Origin: Baffinella frigidus
Taxonomy: Eukaryota > Cryptophyceae > Cryptomonadales > Baffinellaceae
Direction: 5' to 3'
Assembly (NCBI GenBank): GCA_026770585.1
Contig: MU646689.1
Span: forward strand, 112,886 to 137,439
Length of the DNA stretch: 24,554 nt
The position numbers were made by a program, and so were the translations under genes. Shown piece by piece: positions 2,785 to 22,744 of the stretch. The notes under the pieces are model-generated. The model was not told the DNA's origin. It did not search any database and saw nothing but the letters and a program-made list of their open reading frames with translations. Every line of letters starts with the position of its first letter. Position 1 is the stretch's first letter.

Positions 2785-2847
2785 GCTCACGGCTTCAGGG
2801 ATGTTGTCGTCATTCCCATAGCTCCCTCCGCCGTAGTTGTCCGCAGG
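2785..2847 (-). CDS. Putative exon containing PADNYGGGSYGNDD
   Basis: This 63-nt, 21-codon open segment lies between a CAG acceptor (2848-2850) and a strong GTAAGTGCC donor (2784 downward), phase 0 at both ends. The peptide starts PADNYGGGSYGNDDNI and ends PEAVS. It is Gly/Asn/Asp-rich, as in a disordered tail or linker. The acceptor is duplicated: the same CAG-CCTGCGGACA occurs at 2981-2993 beyond a family C insertion, preceded there by a CCCTAGACC telomere-like stretch. I do not recognise a domain. The exon call rests on splice consensus and frame only; short open segments can occur by chance. Confidence 0.5.
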
Positions 2848-2850
2848 CTG

Positions 2851-2980
2851 TAGGAGGTGGAGTTAGAATCCATCCGAAAAATGCTCGTATGAGCGGCCGA
2901 CACGGGGTACAGCAAGTGGCACAATGCGTAGCATGTGCGGCGCTGACGCTGGTTGTTTGGCAATAACTTATCAATCTCTC
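2851..2980 (-). mobile_element. Family C introner-like element, copy 1
   Basis: Exactly 130 bp, flanked by the perfect 13-bp direct repeat TGTCCGCAGGCTG (2838-2850 and 2981-2993). It has no terminal inverted repeats. In minus-strand sense it starts GAGAGATTGATAA, carries GCATTTTCC, and ends TTCTAACTCCACCTCCTA. That end resembles a branch-point sequence followed by a pyrimidine tract. The next bases are CAG from the target-site duplication, so the element plus duplication rebuild a 3' splice site directly before the PADNYGGG exon. Confidence 0.8.
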
Positions 2981-3111
2981 TGTCCGCAGGCTGCGTGACG
3001 GTCTAGGGTTTAGGTCCTTTAGATCCATTAGGTTTTAAATGCTCCCAACATAGGCGAACACCTCTCCCTTCCGTAGAAAGGATCTGCAGAATTTAGGGTG
3101 CAGGGCTTAGT

Positions 3112-4314: not shown

Positions 4315-4413
4315 GAGAAACCGCCCCCCCCTAGGACCACCATAGGGCCCTATGCATAGTCCTACAATAGGGCCCTAGAAGGAGGCGGTTCCTTATGAGC
4401 GAGGTACCCCTGT
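4315..4413. mobile_element. MITE family A, copy 5 (left end missing)
   Basis: Begins at GAGAAACCGCCCCCCCC and lacks the outer ACAGGGGTACC part of the TIR. The right end ATGAGCGAGGTACCCCTGT is intact. TACGTCCTAGGTAGG occurs twice just downstream (4413-4450). Confidence 0.8.
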
Positions 4414-4477
4414 ACGTCCTAGGTAGGTAAGTCCCTACGTCCTAGGTAGGCCCTAAACCCTCAACTCGCAGGGATCA

Positions 4478-4607
4478 AAGAGATTGACAATTTATTGCCA
4501 AACAACCAGCGTCAGCGCCGCACATGCTACGCATTGTGCCACATACTGTACCCCTTGTTGGCCGCTCATACGAGCATTTTCCGGATGGATTCTAACTCCA
4601 CCTCCTA
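4478..4607 (+). mobile_element. Family C introner-like element, copy 2
   Basis: 130 bp in plus orientation, from AAGAGATTGACAATTTATT to TTCTAACTCCACCTCCTA. A CGCAG lies seven bases before the left end (4467-4471), as at other C copies. The right flank CATGCCGACC does not match, so no target-site duplication can be shown and one flank may have been exchanged. Confidence 0.75.
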
Positions 4608-4740
4608 CATGCCGACCTTCAACATAAACAACGACACTTCGAGACCGGTCCCTCTCTCATCATGAAAACCTAAACCCCAAACTCAACCCTAGAACCCAAT
4701 CGGTGGGGTGTGGGCAACCTTACTGCCGTGATGACATATA
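4608..4740. other. Spacer
   Basis: Contains a short C-rich telomere-like stretch (CTAAACCCCAAACTCAACCC, about 4669). No gene or element is recognised. Confidence 0.5.
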
Positions 4741-5413: not shown

Positions 5414-5492
5414 GTAAAGGACTCCGCAGAAAGAGCACGCGAAGAGCACGCCGATGACCAGGAGGGGGGTCCCGATCGTCTGCACTATGCTC
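5414..5492 (-). CDS. Putative transmembrane exon SIVQTIG, best copy
   Basis: A 79-nt segment between the acceptor CCTACCGTTGCAG (CAG 5495-5493) and the donor GTGAGACC. One nucleotide completes a codon, then 26 codons follow: SIVQTIG followed by GTPLLVIGVLFACSFCGVLY. The hydrophobic run with Cys residues fits a single membrane-spanning helix. It ends in phase 0, compatible with the tail exon at 3924. Five further copies or fragments lie at 5062, 5601, 5742, 6100 and 6527. This copy is the longest and has no frameshift. The upstream intron end carries AACCTCCTACC, resembling the 3' end of family C. Protein family unknown. Confidence 0.55.
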
Positions 5493-5555
5493 CTGCAACG
5501 GTAGGAGGTTGAGTGAATTTTCAGAGGTGGTTTCAGGGGTGGCGGAACAGCATGT

Positions 5556-5603
5556 ACAGGGGTGCCTTGCTCACAAGAAAGCGCGCGCTCCCCTAGAACC
5601 GGC
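5556..5603. mobile_element. MITE family A, copy 6 (left end only)
   Basis: ACAGGGGTGCCTTGCTCAC and AAGAAAGCGCGCG are followed by CCCCTAGAACC. The right half is missing and sequence passes straight into a TM-exon copy, so the element truncates that exon. Confidence 0.7.
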
Positions 5604-5637
5604 CAGGAGGGGGATGCCGATCGTCTGGACTATGCTC
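5601..5637 (-). pseudogene. TM-exon copy, 3' truncated by A6
   Basis: Acceptor CCTACCCTTGCAG (5640-5638), then SIVQTIGIPLLAG before running into the A6 fragment. It is in the same phase as the best copy and preceded by TTAACTCCACCTCCTACC. Confidence 0.5.
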
Positions 5638-5676
5638 CTGCAAGGGTAGGAGGTGGAGTTAAAAGACCCACGCCAG

Positions 5677-5739
5677 GTCCTAGGCAGGTCCTAGGGCCCT
5701 ACGGTAGGGCGTATGAGCCTACTGGCCACTTAAGGGATA
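5677..5739. mobile_element. MITE family B, copy 3 (half, inverted)
   Basis: CCTAGGGCCCTACGGTAGGG, then CGTATGAGCCTACTGGCC and the complete terminus ACTTAAGGGATA. Orientation is opposite to copies 1 and 2 and the other half is absent. In minus sense it abuts the end of the TM-exon copy at 5742-5798. Confidence 0.7.
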
Positions 5740-5741
5740 GG

Positions 5742-5798
5742 CGGACACTGGAACGCCGAGGATCAGGAGGGGAATCCCGATCGTCTTGGACTATGCTT
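5742..5798 (-). pseudogene. TM-exon copy with +1 frameshift
   Basis: Starts after TTTGCAG with AGCATAGTCCAAGACG. One extra A relative to the other copies breaks the frame after SIVQ; past it the sequence reads TIGIPLLILGV. It has lost its donor at the B3 boundary. Confidence 0.5.
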
Positions 5799-5813
5799 CT
5801 GCAAAGCCCGGGT

Positions 5814-5987
5814 CCACGCCATGTCACAAGTGGGAATTTCACACGCAACGTTTCGCGCTAAAATTGTTTCGTGGTACGAAAAAACATTGTAGCGCCCACG
5901 AAGGGCTCCGATTCCCAACACTTTTGGCGTGGCAACTTTACCCGTGGATGGTGTAGTAATGAAAATCCGACTTGTGACCTGGCGCGG
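5814..5987. mobile_element. MITE family N, copy 4
   Basis: CCACGCCATGTCACAAGTGG to CTTGTGACCTGGCGCGG, with GTTTCGTGGTACGAAA inside as in other N copies. The left flank CTGCAAAGCCCGGGT is identical to that of E copy 2 (6345-6359) and both right flanks start TTAGGG. Confidence 0.7.
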
Positions 5988-6068
5988 TTAGGGTTCAGGG
6001 TTCCACTTCGCATCCACCAGGGGCTTCACGGAGACAGTCCATCTAAACGATTTGTACAAGAATCTTAT

Positions 6069-6128
6069 CCATTGCCCTGGATTCCAACCAGGGCAATGGA
6101 GGGAATTTTGATCGTCTGAACTATGCTC
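6069..6128 (-). pseudogene. TM-exon copy joined to a hairpin
   Basis: After AACAG (6131-6129) the frame reads SIVQTIKIPSIALV, then enters a perfect 12-bp-arm hairpin CCATTGCCCTGG/CCAGGGCAATGG (6069-6099). The upstream intron end has TAACTCCACCTCCTACC. The conserved hydrophobic 3' half is lost. Confidence 0.45.
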
Positions 6129-6157
6129 CTGTTAAGGTAGGAGGTGGAGTTAGGAAT

Positions 6158-6225: not shown

Positions 6226-6338
6226 TGGTGGAGTTAGAACCCATCCGGAAAATGCTCGTATGAGCGGCCGACACGGGGTACAGTAGTGGCACAAAGCGTA
6301 GCATGTGCGGTTGTTTGGCAATAAATTATCAATCTCTC
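6226..6338 (-). mobile_element. Family C element, copy 3 (internal deletion)
   Basis: Matches C1 from GGTGGAGTTAGAA to CAATCTCTC but lacks about 12 bases (GCGCTGACGCTG) before GTTGTTTGGC. In minus sense the left flank is TTTGCAGGAAACA, so a CAG again lies just outside the start. The other flank is replaced by an A-family remnant. Confidence 0.75.
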
Positions 6339-7786: not shown

Positions 7787-7866
7787 CGGGGCAGGACCAA
7801 TGGGTGAGAGAAGCCTCAAGGGCAATGGCAGGGCTCCAGAGGCGCAGGCAGGCTTCGTCCGAGCAT
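7787..7866 (-). CDS. Weak candidate exon CSDEACLRLWSP
   Basis: Starts after the CAG (7869-7867) provided by the target-site duplication of family C copy 4. One base and then codons CSDEACLRLWSPAIALEAS run open to the CT satellite. No good donor is visible (only TTG-GTCCTG). Placed here because the acceptor geometry matches the PADNYGGG exon. Could be non-coding. Confidence 0.25.
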
Positions 7867-7869
7867 CTG

Positions 7870-7999
7870 TCGGAGCTGGAGTTACAATCCATCCGGAAAA
7901 TGCTCGTATGAGCACCCGACACGGGGTACAGTAAGTGGCACAATGCGTCGAGCATTTGCGGCGCTGACGCTGGTTGTTTGGCAATAAATTATCAAACTC
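7870..7999 (-). mobile_element. Family C introner-like element, copy 4
   Basis: 130 bp, with the 12-bp perfect direct repeat TCCGAGCATCTG at 7858-7869 and 8000-8011. In minus sense the duplication is CAGATGCTCGGA, so a CAG follows directly after the element's TTGTAACTCCAGCTCCGA end. Confidence 0.85.
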
Positions 8000-8015
8000 T
8001 CCGAGCATCTGCGGG

Positions 8016-9290: not shown

Positions 9291-9647
9291 CCACGGGCTT
9301 CCAACATTGGACCTGACAGCGACAGAGAGATTGATTATTTAATTTATTGCCAAAAAATCAGCGTCAGTGCCGCACATGCGACGCATTGTGCCACTTACTG
9401 TACCCCGTCTCGGCCGCTCATACGAGCATTTTCCGGATGGATTCTAACTCCACCTCCTACTGACAGAGAGACCAGGCAGATCAAGCACCCACTTTGAAAC
9501 CCAGGGAGCTGTACAAGTGAGGCAGGTGTAGTAATTTTCATTTGTTTGGTCACGTGGCTACACGCGTTCCGTGTAGCCACGTGACCAACTCCCTACAAAA
9601 CGCCTACAATCTACATTTGAAAAGGGTGCCGGGGTAGCCTCGTGTGG
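9291..9647. mobile_element. Family G element, copy 1, with nested C5
   Basis: The right part is clear: GGTGTAGTAATTTTC, the hairpin TTGGTCACGTGGCTACAC/GTGTAGCCACGTGACCAA (9546-9588) and the end GTAGCCTCGTGTGG. The left TIR is a weak match (CCACGGGCTTCC at 9291) on the far side of family C copy 5. I infer that C5 inserted into G1. Confidence 0.5.
9325..9460 (+). mobile_element. Family C introner-like element, copy 5
   Basis: Starts GAGAGATTGATTATTT (about five extra bases) and ends TTCTAACTCCACCTCCTA. The flanks are CTGACAGCGACA and CTGACAGAGAGA, a 12-bp duplication with two mismatches that includes CAG, here followed by A-rich sequence on the plus strand. Confidence 0.75.
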
Positions 9648-10349: not shown

Positions 10350-10520
10350 TTATAAGATAACGGACTGCAAACCGGGTAGTTAGGCCTACGGTATTGCCTA
10401 CGGTAGGTCGTAGGACCCCCAGGACCTGATATTTCGTAGGACCCCCCCTACGCCCCAACGGCCTACCGTAGGCAATACCGTAGGCTTAACTACCCGGTTT
10501 TCAGGACGTTGGCCTATGAA
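10350..10520. mobile_element. MITE family P, copy 1
   Basis: The left arm (TAACGGACTGCAAACCGGG) pairs with the complement of CCCGGTTTTCAGGACGTTGG. Inner arms read GCCTACGGTATTGCCTACGG. By comparison with P3 the right end extends to CCTATGAA. It lies six bases before the donor of the first Cys/Gly exon copy in plus coordinates. Confidence 0.75.
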
Positions 10521-10530
10521 CATGTACTAC

Positions 10531-10591
10531 CGTTTGGCTTTCGGAAAAGGAGCCTGCCACGGCCGAACCACCCTCACACGAGCAGGAGTAT
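10531..10591 (-). CDS. Putative Cys/Gly exon, copy 1
   Basis: A 61-nt segment: one base plus 20 codons, YSCSCEGGSAVAGSFSESQT, then the donor GTAGTAC. The acceptor is ATAG, whose A is the last base of B copy 2 in minus sense, so the B insertion provides the new 3' splice site and phase is kept. Over the 16 shared codons from TGT on, it differs from the copy at 10818-10878 at five, four of them synonymous (GGT/GGA, GCA/GCC, TCC/TCG, TTT/TTC). That pattern supports past selection on the protein. The YxCxCxGG spacing faintly recalls the end of an EGF-like domain, but this is not enough for a call. Confidence 0.55.
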
Positions 10592-10592
10592 C

Positions 10593-10697
10593 TATCCCTG
10601 AAGTGGCCAGTAGGCTCATACGCCCTACTGTAGGGCCCTAGGACCTACCTAGGATCTCTTGGGGGTCAATTTTGAACCCCTCGCCACTTAAGGGATA
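10593..10697. mobile_element. MITE family B, copy 2
   Basis: TATCCCTGAAGTGGCC to CGCCACTTAAGGGATA with the GGGGGTCAATTTTGAACCCC hairpin. It ends precisely at the exon border of the Cys/Gly exon, copy 1. Confidence 0.8.
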
Positions 10698-10817
10698 CAT
10701 GTATTACCGTTTGGGTTGGTATTATTTATACATGTATTATTACATCCAGTTGTTTTATCTATACATGTATCACCGTTTGGGTATTAAATCTAGTTGTATT
10801 ATCTATACATGTATTAC
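10698..10817. repeat. TATACATGTATTACCG repeats
   Basis: ATACATGTATTACCGTTTGG occurs at 10696 and 10808 with variant units between them (TATACATGTATTATTACATC, TATACATGTATCACCG). A related stretch is at 10309-10352. In minus sense each CCGTTTGG border is an exon end followed by CGGTAATAC, so the donor region itself is repeated. Confidence 0.65.
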
Positions 10818-10878
10818 CGTTTGGCTTTCGGAGAACGAGCCGGCCACGGGCGAACCTCCCTCACACGCGCAGTAGCAC
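10818..10878 (-). CDS. Putative Cys/Gly exon, copy 2
   Basis: 61 nt between the acceptor CTCGGGTAG and the donor GTAATAC; one base plus 20 codons, CYCACEGGSPVAGSFSESQT. The upstream intron end is CCCTAAACCCTCAACCC, i.e. telomere-like sequence in C-rich orientation. It has the same length and phase as copy 1. This is the cleanest member of the set, with the acceptor not disturbed by an element. Confidence 0.55.
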
Positions 10879-10923
10879 CTACCCGAGGGTTGAGGGTTTA
10901 GGGTTTAGGGTACAGACATTTAG

Positions 10924-11078
10924 NNNNNNNNNNNNNNNNNNNNNNNNNNNNNNNNNNNNNNNNNNNNNNNNNNNNNNNNNNNNNNNNNNNNNNNNNNNNN
11001 NNNNNNNNNNNNNNNNNNNNNNNNNNNNNNNNNNNNNNNNNNNNNNNNNNNNNNNNNNNNNNNNNNNNNNNNNNNNNN
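10924..11078. other. Assembly gap (Ns)
   Basis: A run of 155 N. It follows a TTTAGGG-like stretch, so a longer telomere-like array may be collapsed here. Confidence 0.99.
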
Positions 11079-11174
11079 CCTTAAGTTAACCGAGGTTCCA
11101 CTTTTGCTTTGAGACGTTCCGCTCCCGACTTTTGTCTCGGTGGGCAGCGCAGTCGAGAAGCAAGAGGAACGGGT

Positions 11175-11306
11175 TTAATCCGTGAACAAATATTTTTCTT
11201 TTGAAAGCTGGCAATGCAAATTACTACACAACTGGTCACGTCCGACGCAACTGTGCAGTAATTTTCGTGCAGTTTTTTAAAAATAAAAACGCTTGTTCCC
11301 GGATGA
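11175..11306. mobile_element. MITE family I, copy 3
   Basis: TTAATCCGTGAACAAATATT and AACGCTTGTTCCCGGATGA are the ends; the core has GCAAATTACTACACAAC, GGTCACGT and GTGCAGTAATTTTCGTGC. Its right end replaces the donor of the third Cys/Gly exon copy (CAAAC then TCATCCGGG in minus sense). The stretch 11079-11174 holds nothing I can name. Confidence 0.65.
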
Positions 11307-11392
11307 GTTTGGGAGAAAGAGCCTGCCACTGGGGCCTAACCCCTAAACCCTGAACCCTAAACCCTAAACCACCCTCACACGCGCAGCAACAC
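11307..11392 (-). pseudogene. Cys/Gly exon copy 3 split by telomere-like repeat
   Basis: Acceptor CCTCACACAG (CAG 11395-11393), then CCCACEGG. The frame is interrupted by about 34 bases of TTTAGGG/TTCAGGG units (11338-11371) before PVAGSFSQTHP resumes. The upstream intron end contains AACTCCACCTCCTAC, matching the 3' end of family C. The donor is lost to I copy 3. Broken copy. Confidence 0.55.
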
Positions 11393-11395
11393 CTG

Positions 11396-11577
11396 TGTGA
11401 GGGTGTAGGGGTGAGAGTTGTAGGAGGTGGAGTTGCACTTGAGTTTGTGCCACACCAGATTGGACGTGGGGGTTGGATTTTTTATTGCGTACCAGGGTAC
11501 ACATGTTAACTTTTGAAACCCCTGCCTTGAGGAGGAATTGACTTTTGGAGACCCCTTCCAAGACTCTGGCGTGGTGG
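11396..11577. other. Spacer
   Basis: Contains GTAGGAGGTGGAGTTG (11422-11437; antisense of the family C end) without the rest of C. A minus-strand ORF covers the stretch but shows no repeat, motif or splice support. Confidence 0.5.
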
Positions 11578-17105: not shown

Positions 17106-17174
17106 ACCAAAACCCCCGCAGGGGGTCTTAGAACGTGGTCATGCTGGTCTTGTAATCAATAAATTCTCTCTTAC

Positions 17175-17225
17175 CGAGGTCTGCGAAATCAGCTGAAGCG
17201 TCGAGTTAGGACGCGGCGCCGAGGT
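17175..17225 (-). pseudogene. Hydrophobic exon copy 9 (3' part, in-frame stop)
   Basis: Ends DASADFADLG with the donor GTAAGAGAG. Upstream the frame holds GCGTCC-TAA, an in-frame stop. The 5' hydrophobic part is replaced by (CCCTAAA)n on the plus strand. Confidence 0.6.
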
Positions 17226-17272
17226 TCTAAACCCTAAACCCTAAACCCTAAACCCTAAACCCCTAAACCTGG
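17226..17272 (-). repeat. (CCCTAAA)n tract
   Basis: Six to seven CCCTAAA units, G-rich on the minus strand, opposite to most tracts. It truncates the adjacent exon copy. Confidence 0.9.
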
Positions 17273-17288
17273 GACTATTCTAAACGTG

Positions 17289-17440
17289 GACTTGTTGAAT
17301 TTAGTACCAGTCACGGGCAGGTGACTTGTTGAATTTAGTACCAGTCACGGGCAGGTTTGGTCACGTATCTCAAGATATACCTTGAGATACCTTGAAATAC
17401 GTGACCAAACGCCCCTATGTGTGTGAAAATTACTACACGT
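17289..17440. mobile_element. Family G element, copy 3 (partial)
   Basis: An exact 34-bp tandem duplication starting GACTTGTTGAATTTAG (17289-17322, 17323-17356), then a TTTGGTCACGTAT...ATACGTGACCAAA hairpin with a duplicated CTTGAGATAC, then GAAAATTACTACACG. The outer TIRs are missing. Confidence 0.7.
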
Positions 17441-17456
17441 CTCTTTTTGGCCTTAC

Positions 17457-17508
17457 CGGGGTCGGCGAAATCGGCTGAAGCGAGGGCGCAGGCGGCGCCC
17501 AGGTTAGC
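17457..17508 (-). pseudogene. Hydrophobic exon copy 8 (internal deletion)
   Basis: TPGS runs directly into WGANLGAACALASADFADPG, losing the membrane segment. The donor GTAAGG is retained. Confidence 0.55.
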
Positions 17509-17560
17509 CCCCCAGGATCCGGGGGTCACGTGATCAAATTCGCACCATGAAAGGCCTTAC

Positions 17561-17665
17561 CGAGGTCTGCGAAATCGGGTGAAGCGTCGAGGGAGGACGG
17601 CTCGCTGAGGTTGGCGGCGTCGAGCGGATGAGGCTACTATCCCGCGACCACCAACGCCCCTAGGC
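17561..17665 (-). pseudogene. Hydrophobic exon copy 7
   Basis: Remnants GALVVAG, then DAANLSEPSSLDASPDFADL, with the donor GTAAGGCC. The membrane part is interrupted by stops. It abuts GGTAACGGAAACTC sequence of family D type. A second fragment with the same GGGGCGTTGGTGGTCGCGG block is at 17827-17877. Confidence 0.5.
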
Positions 17666-17715
17666 CGAGTTTCCGTTACCTTTTGAGTTTCCGTTACCTA
17701 AGGACGTAGAGCGGA

Positions 17716-17823
17716 TACGAGGCCAGGATCATCAGAGACATGTGCTTCATGCAGAAGGGAGCCACCAACTGGGTATCAACGGGAAGGTGATAAGCACATG
17801 TCTCTCATGATCTTGGCCTCGTA
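17716..17823. repeat. 32-bp inverted repeat
   Basis: TACGAGGCCAGGATCATCAG then AGACATGTGCTT (17716-17747), and the complement at 17792-17823 with two mismatches, around a 44-base loop. No terminal features link it to the other families. Confidence 0.75.
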
Positions 17824-17859
17824 CCAGGCTACCATCCCGCGACCACCAACGCCCCTAGG

Positions 17860-17981
17860 CCGAGTTTCCGTTACCTTATCCGTAGGAACCCCCCTACGTC
17901 CCTACGGGTTGTCTACCGTAGGGCCCTGGGTCTTATCGCTCAGGGGTTGTGTTCGAAATCCCTTGGAAGTCCGCTGTGTGG
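17860..17981. mobile_element. MITE family D, copy 3 (left end missing)
   Basis: GAGTTTCCGTTACCTTATCC to GGAAGTCCGCTGTGTGG. Its right edge is immediately followed by TACCGCGG, the donor of hydrophobic exon copy 6 in minus sense. Confidence 0.75.
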
Positions 17982-17984
17982 TAC

Positions 17985-18037
17985 CGCGGTCTGCGAAATC
18001 GGCTGAAGCGTCGATGGCGCACGCGGTGCCGAGCGCT
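17985..18037 (-). pseudogene. Hydrophobic exon copy 6 (3' part)
   Basis: Reads GTACAIDASADFADR, then G-GTA. The GTA donor is followed at once by CCACACAGCGG, the end of D copy 3, instead of AGT. The 5' part stops at GAGCGCT where an AT-rich segment (18038-18136) begins. Confidence 0.55.
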
Positions 18038-18136
18038 CTCACAAAAGAATATATTAAGAGGATTAAGAGGAAACTAGGGAAAAACTCAACTATAACACTA
18101 CCATCACCAGTGATTCACCACCCCCGCAACCACCAC

Positions 18137-18262
18137 CGTTCGTGTAGTAATTTTCACATGTTCGGTCGAATAGAAAGACAAGCTACACGTAGCACGTGAC
18201 CAATTCGCCCTACAAATTTTAAACCCGACGTTTATTCTGTTCGCATGGGTAGCCTCGTGAGG
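18137..18262. mobile_element. Family G element, copy 6 (left end missing)
   Basis: GTGTAGTAATTTTCAC, AGCTACACGTAGCACGTGACC and the end GGTAGCCTCGTGAGG. Most similar to G copy 5 (shared TATTCTGTTCGCATGG). Its edge meets the donor of exon copy 5. Confidence 0.7.
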
Positions 18263-18265
18263 TAC

Positions 18266-18324
18266 CGAGGTCTGCGACATCGGCTGAGGCGTCGAGGGCG
18301 GACTTGGTCCCGAGGTTGGCGGCG
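18266..18324 (-). pseudogene. Hydrophobic exon copy 5 (3' part)
   Basis: AANLGTKSALDASADVADL, then G-GTACC. The donor GTA is followed by CCTCACGAGG, the end of G copy 6. The 5' side is replaced at 18325 by ATTTCATTAGGATTC sequence (18325-18420, unassigned). Confidence 0.55.
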
Positions 18325-18429
18325 CTTGATTTCATTAGGATTCATAAGCAAATTTACCTATGCCATAGTAATTTCTCCTAGGATTTCTCCTATGAAATGA
18401 ACTTTTGGGTTGGGTGCCCTCTGACTTAC

Positions 18430-18545
18430 CGAGGTCTGCGAAGTCGGTTGAGGCGTCGAGGGCCGACGCGGTGCCCAGGTTCGCGCCGCCAAGCGCTAAC
18501 ATCACCACCCCCGCGACCAGAAACGCGAACGCGCAAAAGCACGTG
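18430..18545 (-). CDS. Putative hydrophobic exon, full-length copy 4
   Basis: 116 nt between CTTGGCAG (CAG 18548-18546) and a textbook GTAAGTCAG donor: one base, 38 codons, one base. It contains CAFAFLVAGVVMLALGGANL, long enough to span a membrane, then GTASALDASTDFADL. Pieces of at least eight other copies lie between 17175 and 19220; this is the only one with both ends, no stop and no insertion. The exon starts in phase with the PFGGD exon at 20807 (two bases left over), but its own end phase has no matching next exon that I can find. Likely the first membrane span of the predicted protein. Family unknown. Confidence 0.55.
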
Positions 18546-18573
18546 CTGCCAAGGGTTACGAGGCTCAGTGCGG

Positions 18574-18626
18574 ATGTCAACTTTCCCCGCAAAAATCATC
18601 GTTTTGTACCAGGAAATTTGATATGC
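18574..18626. repeat. GTCAACTTTCCCCGC repeat, copy 1
   Basis: GTCAACTTTCCCCGCAAAAA ... GTTTTGTACCAGGAAATTTG. Inverted copies lie at 20474-20515 and 20699-20747. A small dispersed repeat of unknown class. Confidence 0.65.
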
Positions 18627-18642
18627 ACGGCAAAAGTGGACA

Positions 18643-18717
18643 GCCGCGAGGTTCGCGGAGCCGAGCGCTAACATCACCGCCCCCGCGACCAGAAAGGCAA
18701 ACGCGCCGCAGCACGTG
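18643..18717 (-). pseudogene. Hydrophobic exon copy 3 (5' part)
   Basis: After CCTGGCAG: TCCGAFAFLVAGAVMLALGS, then ANLAA, after which it runs into the GTCAACTTTCCCCGC repeat. Only the donor part is lost. Confidence 0.55.
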
Positions 18718-18731
18718 CTGCCAGGGGTTTC

Positions 18732-18860
18732 ATCAGGGGACATGTTTAATTCAAAAGAAAATGGATCCTTATTTGTTCATAGGAGTTGGACGAAGGTTAA
18801 TTAGGGCCCCAAGTAAATTTGATTAGGACCAGAACCGTTAAATTAAACATGGTCCCGGAT
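18732..18860. mobile_element. MITE family J, copy 2
   Basis: ATCAGGGGACATGTTTAATT and TTAAATTAAACATGGTCCCGGAT; about 20 bp shorter than J1 because part of the right arm is missing. Confidence 0.8.
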
Positions 18861-18870
18861 GAGATTAGGG

Positions 18871-18996
18871 TTTAGGGAGGACGCGGCGCCCAGGTTCGCG
18901 GCGCGTGTTAGGGTGATGCGGTGATGGTAGGGCGGTGATGTGAGCGCTACCATCACCGCCCCCGTGACAAGGAACGCCAACGCGCCGCAGCACGTG
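18871..18996 (-). pseudogene. Hydrophobic exon copy 2
   Basis: After CGGGCAG: TCCGALAFLVTGAVMVAL, then a 27-nt insertion of CATCACCGC-type triplets, then AANLGAASSL and a CCCTAAACCC unit. The donor is gone. Confidence 0.55.
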
Positions 18997-19029
18997 CTGC
19001 CCGGCGCTCCGGGCTGAGGGCGCAGGGCT

Positions 19030-19168
19030 TTATCCGGGGACACCTTTTTTCTCTCTTTTGATGGCAATGAAAATTACTACACATTTTTAAAAATATTACT
19101 AGCAAGAACGAATTGTGTAGTAATTTTCATTGCCATCGAATGAAAGAAAAATAGGTTTCCCCGGATAA
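19030..19168. mobile_element. MITE family I, copy 2 (reference copy)
   Basis: TTATCCGGGGACACC to GGTTTCCCCGGATAA, 139 bp. Arms continue through TTTTGATGGCAATGAAAATT/AATTTTCATTGCCATCGAA. It cuts hydrophobic exon copy 1 after TTAGCC. Confidence 0.85.
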
Positions 19169-19220
19169 GGCTAACTTCACCGCCCCCACGACCCCGAACG
19201 CCAACGCGCCACACCTCGTG
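19169..19220 (-). pseudogene. Hydrophobic exon copy 1 (5' part)
   Basis: Acceptor CCTAACCCCGGGCAG at the edge of a telomere-like array, then TRCGALAFGVVGAVKLA, truncated by I copy 2. A Lys inside the hydrophobic run suggests decay. Confidence 0.5.
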
Positions 19221-19229
19221 CTGCCCGGG

Positions 19230-19660
19230 GTTAGGCTTAATGGGGTTTTTGGTTTAGGGCTCAGAGTGAATGAGGTTTTTGGTTTAGGGCTCAGGGTTAA
19301 TGAGGTTTTTGGTTTAGGGCTCAGGGTTAATGAGGTTTTTGGTTGAGGGCTCAGGATGAATGAGGGTTTTGGTTTCAAGGCTCAGGGTTTATGAGGTTTT
19401 TGAGTTTAGGGGTCAGGGTGAATGAGGTTTTTGGTTTAGGGCTCAGGATTAATGAGGTTTTGGGTTTAGGGGTCAGGGTTCATGAGATTTTTGGGTTCAG
19501 GGCTCAGGGTGAATTGAGGTTTTTGGTTTCGGGGTTAGGGTTTACGTGAGGTTTTTTTTTTGGTGTTTTGTGTGTGAAGATAAGGAGGGTTTAGGGTTTG
19601 GGTTTTAGGGTGCAGGCTTGAGGGTGTAGGGTGTAGGGTTAAGGAGGGTTTCGGGCAGCA
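19230..19660 (+). repeat. TTTAGGGCTCAGGGTTAATGAGG minisatellite
   Basis: About nine units of roughly 32-36 bases, each with GAGGTTTTTGGTTTAGGGCT and CAGGGTTAAT-like parts, then plain TTTAGGG/TGTAGGG. It is a higher-order derivative of the heptamer. Minus translations repeat KTSLTLSPKP. Confidence 0.85.
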
Positions 19661-21391: not shown

Positions 21392-21410
21392 GGGGGACGC
21401 GACCAGGAAG

Positions 21411-21540
21411 CAAAGATTGATATTTTTTTGCCAAACAATCAGCGTCAGCGCCGCACATGCTAAGCATTGTGCCACTTACTATACCCCGTGTCGCCCCCTC
21501 GTACGAGCATTTTCCGGATGGATTCTAACTCCACCTCCGA
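21411..21540 (+). mobile_element. Family C introner-like element, copy 6
   Basis: 130 bp in plus orientation between perfect 11-bp direct repeats CGACCAGGAAG (21400-21410, 21541-21551). It ends TTCTAACTCCACCTCCGA, followed by CGACCAG from the duplication. On the minus strand the interrupted sequence can be read as HLWYSSFLVASPL, so here the element may lie antisense to coding sequence. Confidence 0.85.
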
Positions 21541-21551
21541 CGACCAGGAAG

Positions 21552-22570: not shown

Positions 22571-22744
22571 TAGGTTGTCCTCGCGCCGCGCCACCAGCCC
22601 TAAGAGTGCGAGCAAACCCTCTGTCGAGACCCCTGATTTGTACCACAGGTCGCCGGATTCCGACGAAATTCAGTACACATCAAGGGATCCAAAAAAGGCG
22701 ATCTGCTCCCACCCTGAGGGCTGGTGGGGTGTCCTCGCGCCGTC
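22571..22744. other. Unassigned, possible minus-strand coding fragment
   Basis: GTCCTCGCGCCG and CCACCAGC occur at both edges. In minus sense, after CCCCACCAG, the frame reads PSGWEQIAFFGSLD before GTGTAC (22694-22735). It is short and has no second copy, so coding status is open. Confidence 0.3.

Follow-up and report, generated by a model that had tools for sequence, protein, structure and literature searches.

Can a short mobile element settle on an intron–exon junction and rebuild, from the target sequence that it duplicates, the 3′ splice site that it interrupts? The question is raised by a stretch of the Baffinella frigidus genome of 24,554 nt (the whole of it is called the window here), in which blastn and a profile search with nhmmer find six long copies, C1 to C6, of a repeat family that we call C. 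An earlier note on this DNA had described C1, C4 and C6 as 130 bp long between perfect direct repeats of 13, 12 and 11 bp, C5 as flanked by 12-bp repeats with two mismatches, and the copies as devoid of terminal inverted repeats (TIRs), with CAG in the duplications of C1, C4, C5 and C6 – all of which is borne out by the sequence, including CAG in four of these four, C5 itself being 135 bp long. The copies and the sites related to them are as follows.

2785–2847, minus strand: predicted 63-nt open exon after C1, with a GTAAGT donor at 2784 (sequence)
2838–2850, minus strand: C1 target duplication at the element 3′ end, CAGCCTGCGGACA in element sense, whose CAG is predicted to act as acceptor (acceptor-score rank 10 of 1395)
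about 2851–2980, minus strand: C1, full-length copy (blastn, nhmmer, sequence)
2981–2993, minus strand: C1 target duplication at the element 5′ end (acceptor-score rank 403 of 1395)
4479–4608, plus strand: C2, full-length copy, without target duplication (blastn, sequence, duplication script)
5501–5515, minus strand: diverged remnant of the C 3′ end (two mismatches) preceding a repeated exon with its putative acceptor at 5493 (sequence match, acceptor score)
5646–5664, minus strand: remnant of the C 3′ end preceding a repeated exon with its putative acceptor at 5638 (sequence match, acceptor score)
5765–5817, minus strand: exon copy e3 and its putative acceptor, CCCGGGCTTTGCAG followed by AAGCATAGTCC, AG ending at 5799; paralogous to the C3 site but free of C (comparison by eye)
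6137–6153, minus strand: far 3′ end of C3, split off by a later repeat and leading to the putative acceptor at 6129 (acceptor-score rank 9 of 1395)
about 6227–6338, minus strand: C3, older copy, main part (blastn, nhmmer)
about 7870–7999, minus strand: C4, full-length copy, duplications 7858–7869 and 8000–8011 (blastn, sequence, duplication script)
about 9325–9459, plus strand: C5, full-length copy of 135 bp, duplications 9313–9324 and 9460–9471 (two mismatches, matched by eye)
11420–11434, minus strand: 15 bp that match the 3′ end of C, 26 bp ahead of a predicted acceptor at 11393 (sequence match, acceptor score)
about 21411–21540, plus strand: C6, full-length copy, duplications 21400–21410 and 21541–21551 (blastn, sequence, duplication script)

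Read in element sense, C starts with a (GA)n run and closes with CTAAC and then CTCCACCTCCTAC (the whole end being TTCTAACTCCACCTCCTAC), a 3′ end that resembles a branch point followed by a pyrimidine tract. Its constant terminal motif is CTCCTAC, and the common end described before holds in part: the exact ending TTCTAACTCCACCTCCTA is missing from C4, which has TTGTAACTCCAGCTCCGA, and from C6, which has CTCCGA. The duplication script called only C1, C4 and C6 in the window, C5 falling under its threshold and C3 – an older copy, broken near its 3′ end by another repeat – going uncalled, with an imperfect duplication matched by eye (CTTTGCAGGAAACA and CTTAACAGGAGCAT). CAG is thus found in five of the five duplication-bearing copies, C3 and C5 being judged by eye, where a 12-mer of the window contains the motif with a probability of 0.13; the motif was, moreover, selected after these copies had been inspected. 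Flanking repeats of at least 11 were found in 188 of 19,743 trials with random 130-bp segments.

These window duplications are the strongest argument for an element directed to splice acceptors, in which either the insertion machinery or selection would place C on intron–exon junctions, the duplicated CAG restoring the acceptor so that the insertion stays silent. C2, which has neither a duplication nor a CAG downstream, already departs from such a rule. At the remaining copies, the neighbouring candidate acceptors were ranked by a simple home-made score over the 1395 YAG sites of the window: those at C3, C1 and C5 (plus strand) come 9th, 10th and 12th, within the top 1%, whereas those at C6 and C4 come 28th (2%) and 193rd (14%). 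The older sites, on the other side of the copies, rank 403rd at C1 and 526th at C3.

The best local case for a duplicated acceptor is C3. Its outer flank, GGACCCGGGCTTTGCAG followed by GA, is the same as the putative acceptor of a repeated exon 330 bp away that is free of C (GGACCCGGGCTTTGCAG followed by AAGCATAGTCC, AG ending at 5799), and past C3 the same exon resumes as AACAG followed by GAGCATAGTTC; an acceptor thus appears to have been duplicated here, as judged from predicted sites. At C1, the CAG is indeed followed, as had been claimed, by a 63-nt open stretch (2785–2847) and GTAAGT, which together make a predicted exon, and a DNA search of the organism's own genome for a second copy of this exon returned only this place. 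C5 is less easily read, for its duplication is also a strong predicted acceptor on the minus strand (CTGTCAG), ahead of a repeated exon with donor GTAAGA, and the antisense end of C itself (AATCAATCTCTC) is acceptor-like there too, ranking 15th, so that C5 does not clearly support the sense strand. An acceptor was plausibly duplicated at both C1 and C5.

It had also been proposed that the terminal string of C precedes the acceptors of repeated exons without the rest of the element. This stands for two exon copies, which keep just the last 15–19 bp of C (one of them with two mismatches) and whose predicted acceptors rank 16th and 43rd, but not for AACTCCACCTCCTAC at 6137–6151, which is the far end of C3 and not an independent short copy. 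Arrays of repeated short exons occupy the minus strand at 5458–6129, 10520–11395, 17165–18495 and 18477–19233, with exon types SIVQTIG, CxCEGG, SSLDASADFADLG and CCGAFAFLVAGAV, some of them broken by different repeats; they possibly record the gain or decay of introns in a gene repeated in tandem.

Whether the window pattern is a property of the family can be asked of the whole genome (382,457,362 bases), in which an exact 40-mer from the 3′ part of C occurs 278 times and its exact 19-mer end 583 times, neither reversed control being found. The 19-mer end is found on average about once per 650 kb; the window is unusually rich in C, with three exact 19-mer ends (2850, 4590 and 9442) and six copies in 24.5 kb. 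Two samples were drawn blind to the junction, both first in contig order: S1 comprises the 100 listed of the 278 places with the 40-mer, and S2 the 58 places lacking the 40-mer among the 100 listed of the 583 places with the 19-mer. Since both were chosen by the 3′ end, copies without that end are missed. Eleven S1 places are shared with an earlier, biased set of loci, which had been retrieved with a query containing C1's own duplication, so that its hits favour CAG at the junction and are not evidence: it gave CAG in 14 of 35 and AG directly after CTAC in 15 of 34, whereas AG stands there in 11 of the 100 junction-blind S1 copies.

Full-length copies (within 6 nt) make up 93 of the 100 in S1, and 62 of these 93 are at least 98% identical to the consensus. 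Among the seven shortened ones, one is cut by Ns and six were checked: a 5′-truncated copy (L053) is bounded by a 24-bp direct repeat, another (L045) shows a 10-bp repeat displaced by 16 nt from the 3′ end, and the other four have no notable flanking repeat. Two further arrangements were seen among the genomic copies. At one locus (L149:600–880), two diverged copies of C lie 240 bp apart with CAGGTGTGGAGCAATGG downstream of both, and the pair thus probably arose by duplication of C along with its flank; at another (L023:1503–1660), C has a reiterated 3′ tail (CTCCTACATCTAACTCCACCTCCTAC), an outcome expected from template slippage or jumping in reverse transcription.

One and the same caller found target duplications at 55 of 100 S1 copies and 28 of 58 S2 copies (83 of 158 in all), with false-call rates of 0.9% and 1.0%, respectively, when flanks were re-paired between copies; none was called at the other 75 of the 158, the caller also missing truncated copies such as L053. 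The duplications range from 9 to 24 bp, with a mode of 12 and with 70 of the 83 at 10–14 bp. Between CTCCTAC and the duplication, one to four extra bases, most commonly A, are present in 30 of 55 S1 and 17 of 28 S2 copies. Just ahead of the (GA)n start, 69 of the 83 duplications (among loci L042–L185) close with an A, a sharper target preference than that for CAG.

Duplications of such variable length, extra bases at the 3′ junction, the 24-bp repeat around a 5′-truncated copy, the A-ending duplications and the many near-identical full-length copies are, taken together, best accounted for by target-primed reverse transcription. On these grounds, we put the probability at roughly 0.8 that C is a non-autonomous, SINE-like retroposon, copied in this manner with enzymes borrowed from a LINE, and that any effect on splice sites follows from the landing site of a copy and reflects no rule of targeting. 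What we infer from these features, as opposed to seeing it, is an RNA intermediate, a partnership with a LINE and the direction of copying. The earlier note had allowed that long duplications without TIRs would fit a SINE-like mechanism, and this part of it is strengthened by the genome-wide duplication lengths, the 3′-junction additions and the truncated copy with its long direct repeat.

The same observations bear on a non-autonomous DNA transposon without TIRs. Such an element would account for the full-length ends of 93 of 100 S1 copies, and short repeats with TIRs abound in the window, but a duplication length spread over 9–24 bp, additional bases at the 3′ junction, the absence of TIRs and a 5′-truncated copy with a long direct repeat make it very improbable; by the same token, a duplication of 9–24 bp and the lack of TIRs set C apart from MITEs. 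The other repeats of the window include a hairpin-like family (TACAGGGGTACCTCGCTCATAAGAAA...TTTCTTATGAGCGAGGTACCCCTGTA, at 728–850, 914–1034, 2343–2465, 2593–2716 and 4316–4417) with apparent TA target duplications, resembling a mariner-like MITE by eye, one relic of which splits C3, and a 141-bp segment (22589–22729) with near-TIR ends between 13-bp direct repeats (TGTCCTCGCGCCG).

How often, then, does the duplication contain CAG? In untrimmed form, the motif is present in 19 of 55 S1 duplications (control 0.146, P 0.0002) and in 8 of 28 from S2 (control 0.105, P 0.007), an interim count over the first 21 S2 copies having given 2 of 8. Yet CA is a common ending of the duplications, and the element starts with G, so that part of this count is the element's own first base. 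Once the (GA)n run was removed from the duplications, with controls taken from the downstream flank, CAG remained in 14 of 55 in S1 (8.8 expected) and 5 of 28 in S2 (3.1 expected), which is 19 of 83 against 11.8 expected (P 0.02), and was absent from 64 of the 83; it then ranked fourth of the 64 trinucleotides, behind CGG, GGT and GGA. In S1, CAG had at first seemed strongly over-represented (18 of 49, P 0.0005, first of the 64 trinucleotides), and this too shrank on removal of the (GA)n start. At the genome-wide rate, five of five in the window would be expected with a probability of 0.23^5 = 0.0006, or 0.012 for the three script-called copies, figures to be read in the knowledge that the hypothesis came from the same window. 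The tabulation of duplications that had been proposed as a check, made here on 158 sampled copies, gives lengths of 9–24 bp (mode 12) and a weak over-representation of CAG.

A broader count, of YAG within 12 nt of the element end, gives 42 of 100 S1 copies if the element's last C is included and 33 when it is left out, the flank having 24%. Exon context was compared in 61 copies, namely those at biased and unbiased loci with long flanks, 23 of which have CAG: an exon-like stretch lies downstream of 2 of the 23 and of 4 of the 38 others.

Known genes offer a further view of the landing sites. A six-frame Pfam scan over about 1.2 kb at 58 loci (34 of the first 39 loci and 24 of 30 loci found with the 40-mer, L019, L034, L035, L040 and L041 being omitted and the other six 40-mer loci repeating earlier ones) gave useful domain matches at three: RWP-RK, ankyrin and EKR/Fer4, the two ankyrin and the two EKR members all falling in L004 and L025; matches to Atrophin-1 and PARP were taken as low complexity. 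None of the three copies sits at the acceptor of its own domain exon. In the first case (L003), C lies antisense about 150 bp ahead of the RWP-RK exon, its duplication containing CACACAG on the gene strand, and an unrecognised exon may lie nearer. In the second (L004:1490–1640), it lies antisense within an ankyrin exon that codes for protein (DATVQLL / QLLLDKGAAV), and its antisense end yields TTATCAATCTCTCTCTGTGCAG there, which resembles an acceptor within the gene. In the third (L025:1230–1680), the ferredoxin-domain exon of an EKR and Fer4 gene is present twice: the upstream copy has decayed and is interrupted both by C and by a stop, and an intact one follows about 165 bp on.

An element directed to acceptors has in its favour, then, the window duplications, the C-free paralogous acceptor at C3, the high scores at C1, C3 and C5, and a certain over-representation of CAG and of nearby YAG. 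Against this stand the 64 duplications without CAG and the three trinucleotides that outrank it, the exon-like stretches that are no more common beside CAG copies, and gene-anchored copies in a coding exon, in a decayed exon and about 150 bp ahead of an exon, and we consider it quite improbable. Because the pattern seen throughout the window is present in only about a quarter of the 83 sampled duplications, splice-site targeting cannot be claimed. This main reading of the earlier note fails as a rule of the family; as an outcome at a few loci, it may occur, to judge from the predicted sites.

The other form in which that proposal was cast, an introner creating an intron at any exonic site that it hits, would be in keeping with the acceptor-like end and with the presence of some copies within genes. 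Yet C has no GT at its sense-strand start, nor does the antisense copy in the ankyrin exon have one where exact removal would need it, and the paralogue of C3 suggests that the intron predated the insertion. Since C brings no donor and no new intron was seen to arise from it, an introner is not shown, and with most sampled duplications also lacking CAG, we give this reading hardly any credence.

Introners (PMC9860276) resemble C as repeat families beside splice sites that derive in part from duplication, but they create introns and have duplications of 3–9 bp, whereas C has no donor and longer duplications, which in most sampled copies are without CAG. The introner elements of Amoebophrya (PMC7789003) likewise have direct repeats at intron borders, in their case of 3–5 nt and accompanied by inverted repeats, neither of which is found in C. 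A parallel to the likeliest cases of C is the canine Merle SINE, which sits at the PMEL17 intron 10/exon 11 boundary with a 15-bp duplication that contains the original acceptor (PMC7349775): there too, a retroposon inserted in an acceptor and the acceptor was duplicated. The Merle insertion is a single event in antisense orientation whose poly(T) tract disturbs splicing, whereas C1 and C3 are in sense orientation with a pyrimidine-rich end. The case shows that a lone retroposon is able to insert at an acceptor and leave it duplicated, and C3 and C1 thus need no special targeting (PMC7349775). A literature search limited to listings and the opening lines of abstracts returned no described family of splice-site-targeted retroposons, which does not prove that none is in print.

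With SINEs as defined in PMC7245038, C shares short, non-coding, dispersed copies without TIRs, variable duplications of about 12 bp and the near-identity of young copies; it is a 130-bp repeat with 583 exact 19-mer ends in 382 Mb, and 83 of 158 sampled copies have LINE-type duplications (9–24 bp, mode 12). Other features of SINEs – a 5′ part derived from a small RNA, ordered A and B boxes and an A- or simple-repeat tail – were not found in C. Rfam and ARAGORN gave no small-RNA ancestor (tRNA, 5S, 7SL or other), Rfam having no match over the window at gathering score and, for C1 up to E 10, two matches far below gathering scores. Judged by the box consensus, C has only A- and B-like boxes in the wrong order; a search for an A-tail, simple-repeat or microsatellite tail met only zero to four extra bases at the 3′ junction; and no LINE with the C 3′ end was present among 58 further 19-mer places fetched of the 583, all of which align to C. 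C is a young family and SINE-like, and it behaves like a SINE, but it is not filed as one, no small-RNA ancestor, ordered boxes or tail having been found and no LINE with its end having been seen among those places.

RNA folding of C2 is not distinctive (z −1.05 sense, −1.85 antisense); two sequence patterns of C had no match in viral contigs or in genome contigs, and a third viral-contig pattern matched one 19-mer (L001) with no further long similarity to C, which was taken as chance. In the window, seven ORFs had no Pfam match and one protein search returned no homologue, and no DinoSL relic was found with the motif searched.

How might a SINE-like retroposon of this kind leave an intact gene behind? 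Where the duplicated target has a YAG among its opening bases, insertion would leave a usable 3′ splice site, on prediction at least, and where the target was already an acceptor, its duplication would put that acceptor back and the mRNA would show no trace of the insertion. On the sequence evidence, such a silent insertion with a restored acceptor probably occurred at C3, and perhaps at C1 and C5. One may go further and suppose that C carries a ready 3′ splice site lacking only the AG, which the duplicated target would supply. A copy landing on a junction would then lengthen the intron and leave the mRNA unchanged. This reading, a self-masking strategy of a minority of copies, favoured by their survival in genes, we regard as unlikely.

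What is of use in these findings is the description of a young, tail-less, SINE-like family without a recognised small-RNA origin, together with two individual loci – C3, with its C-free paralogue, and C1 – at which retroposition into a splice acceptor may have been neutral.
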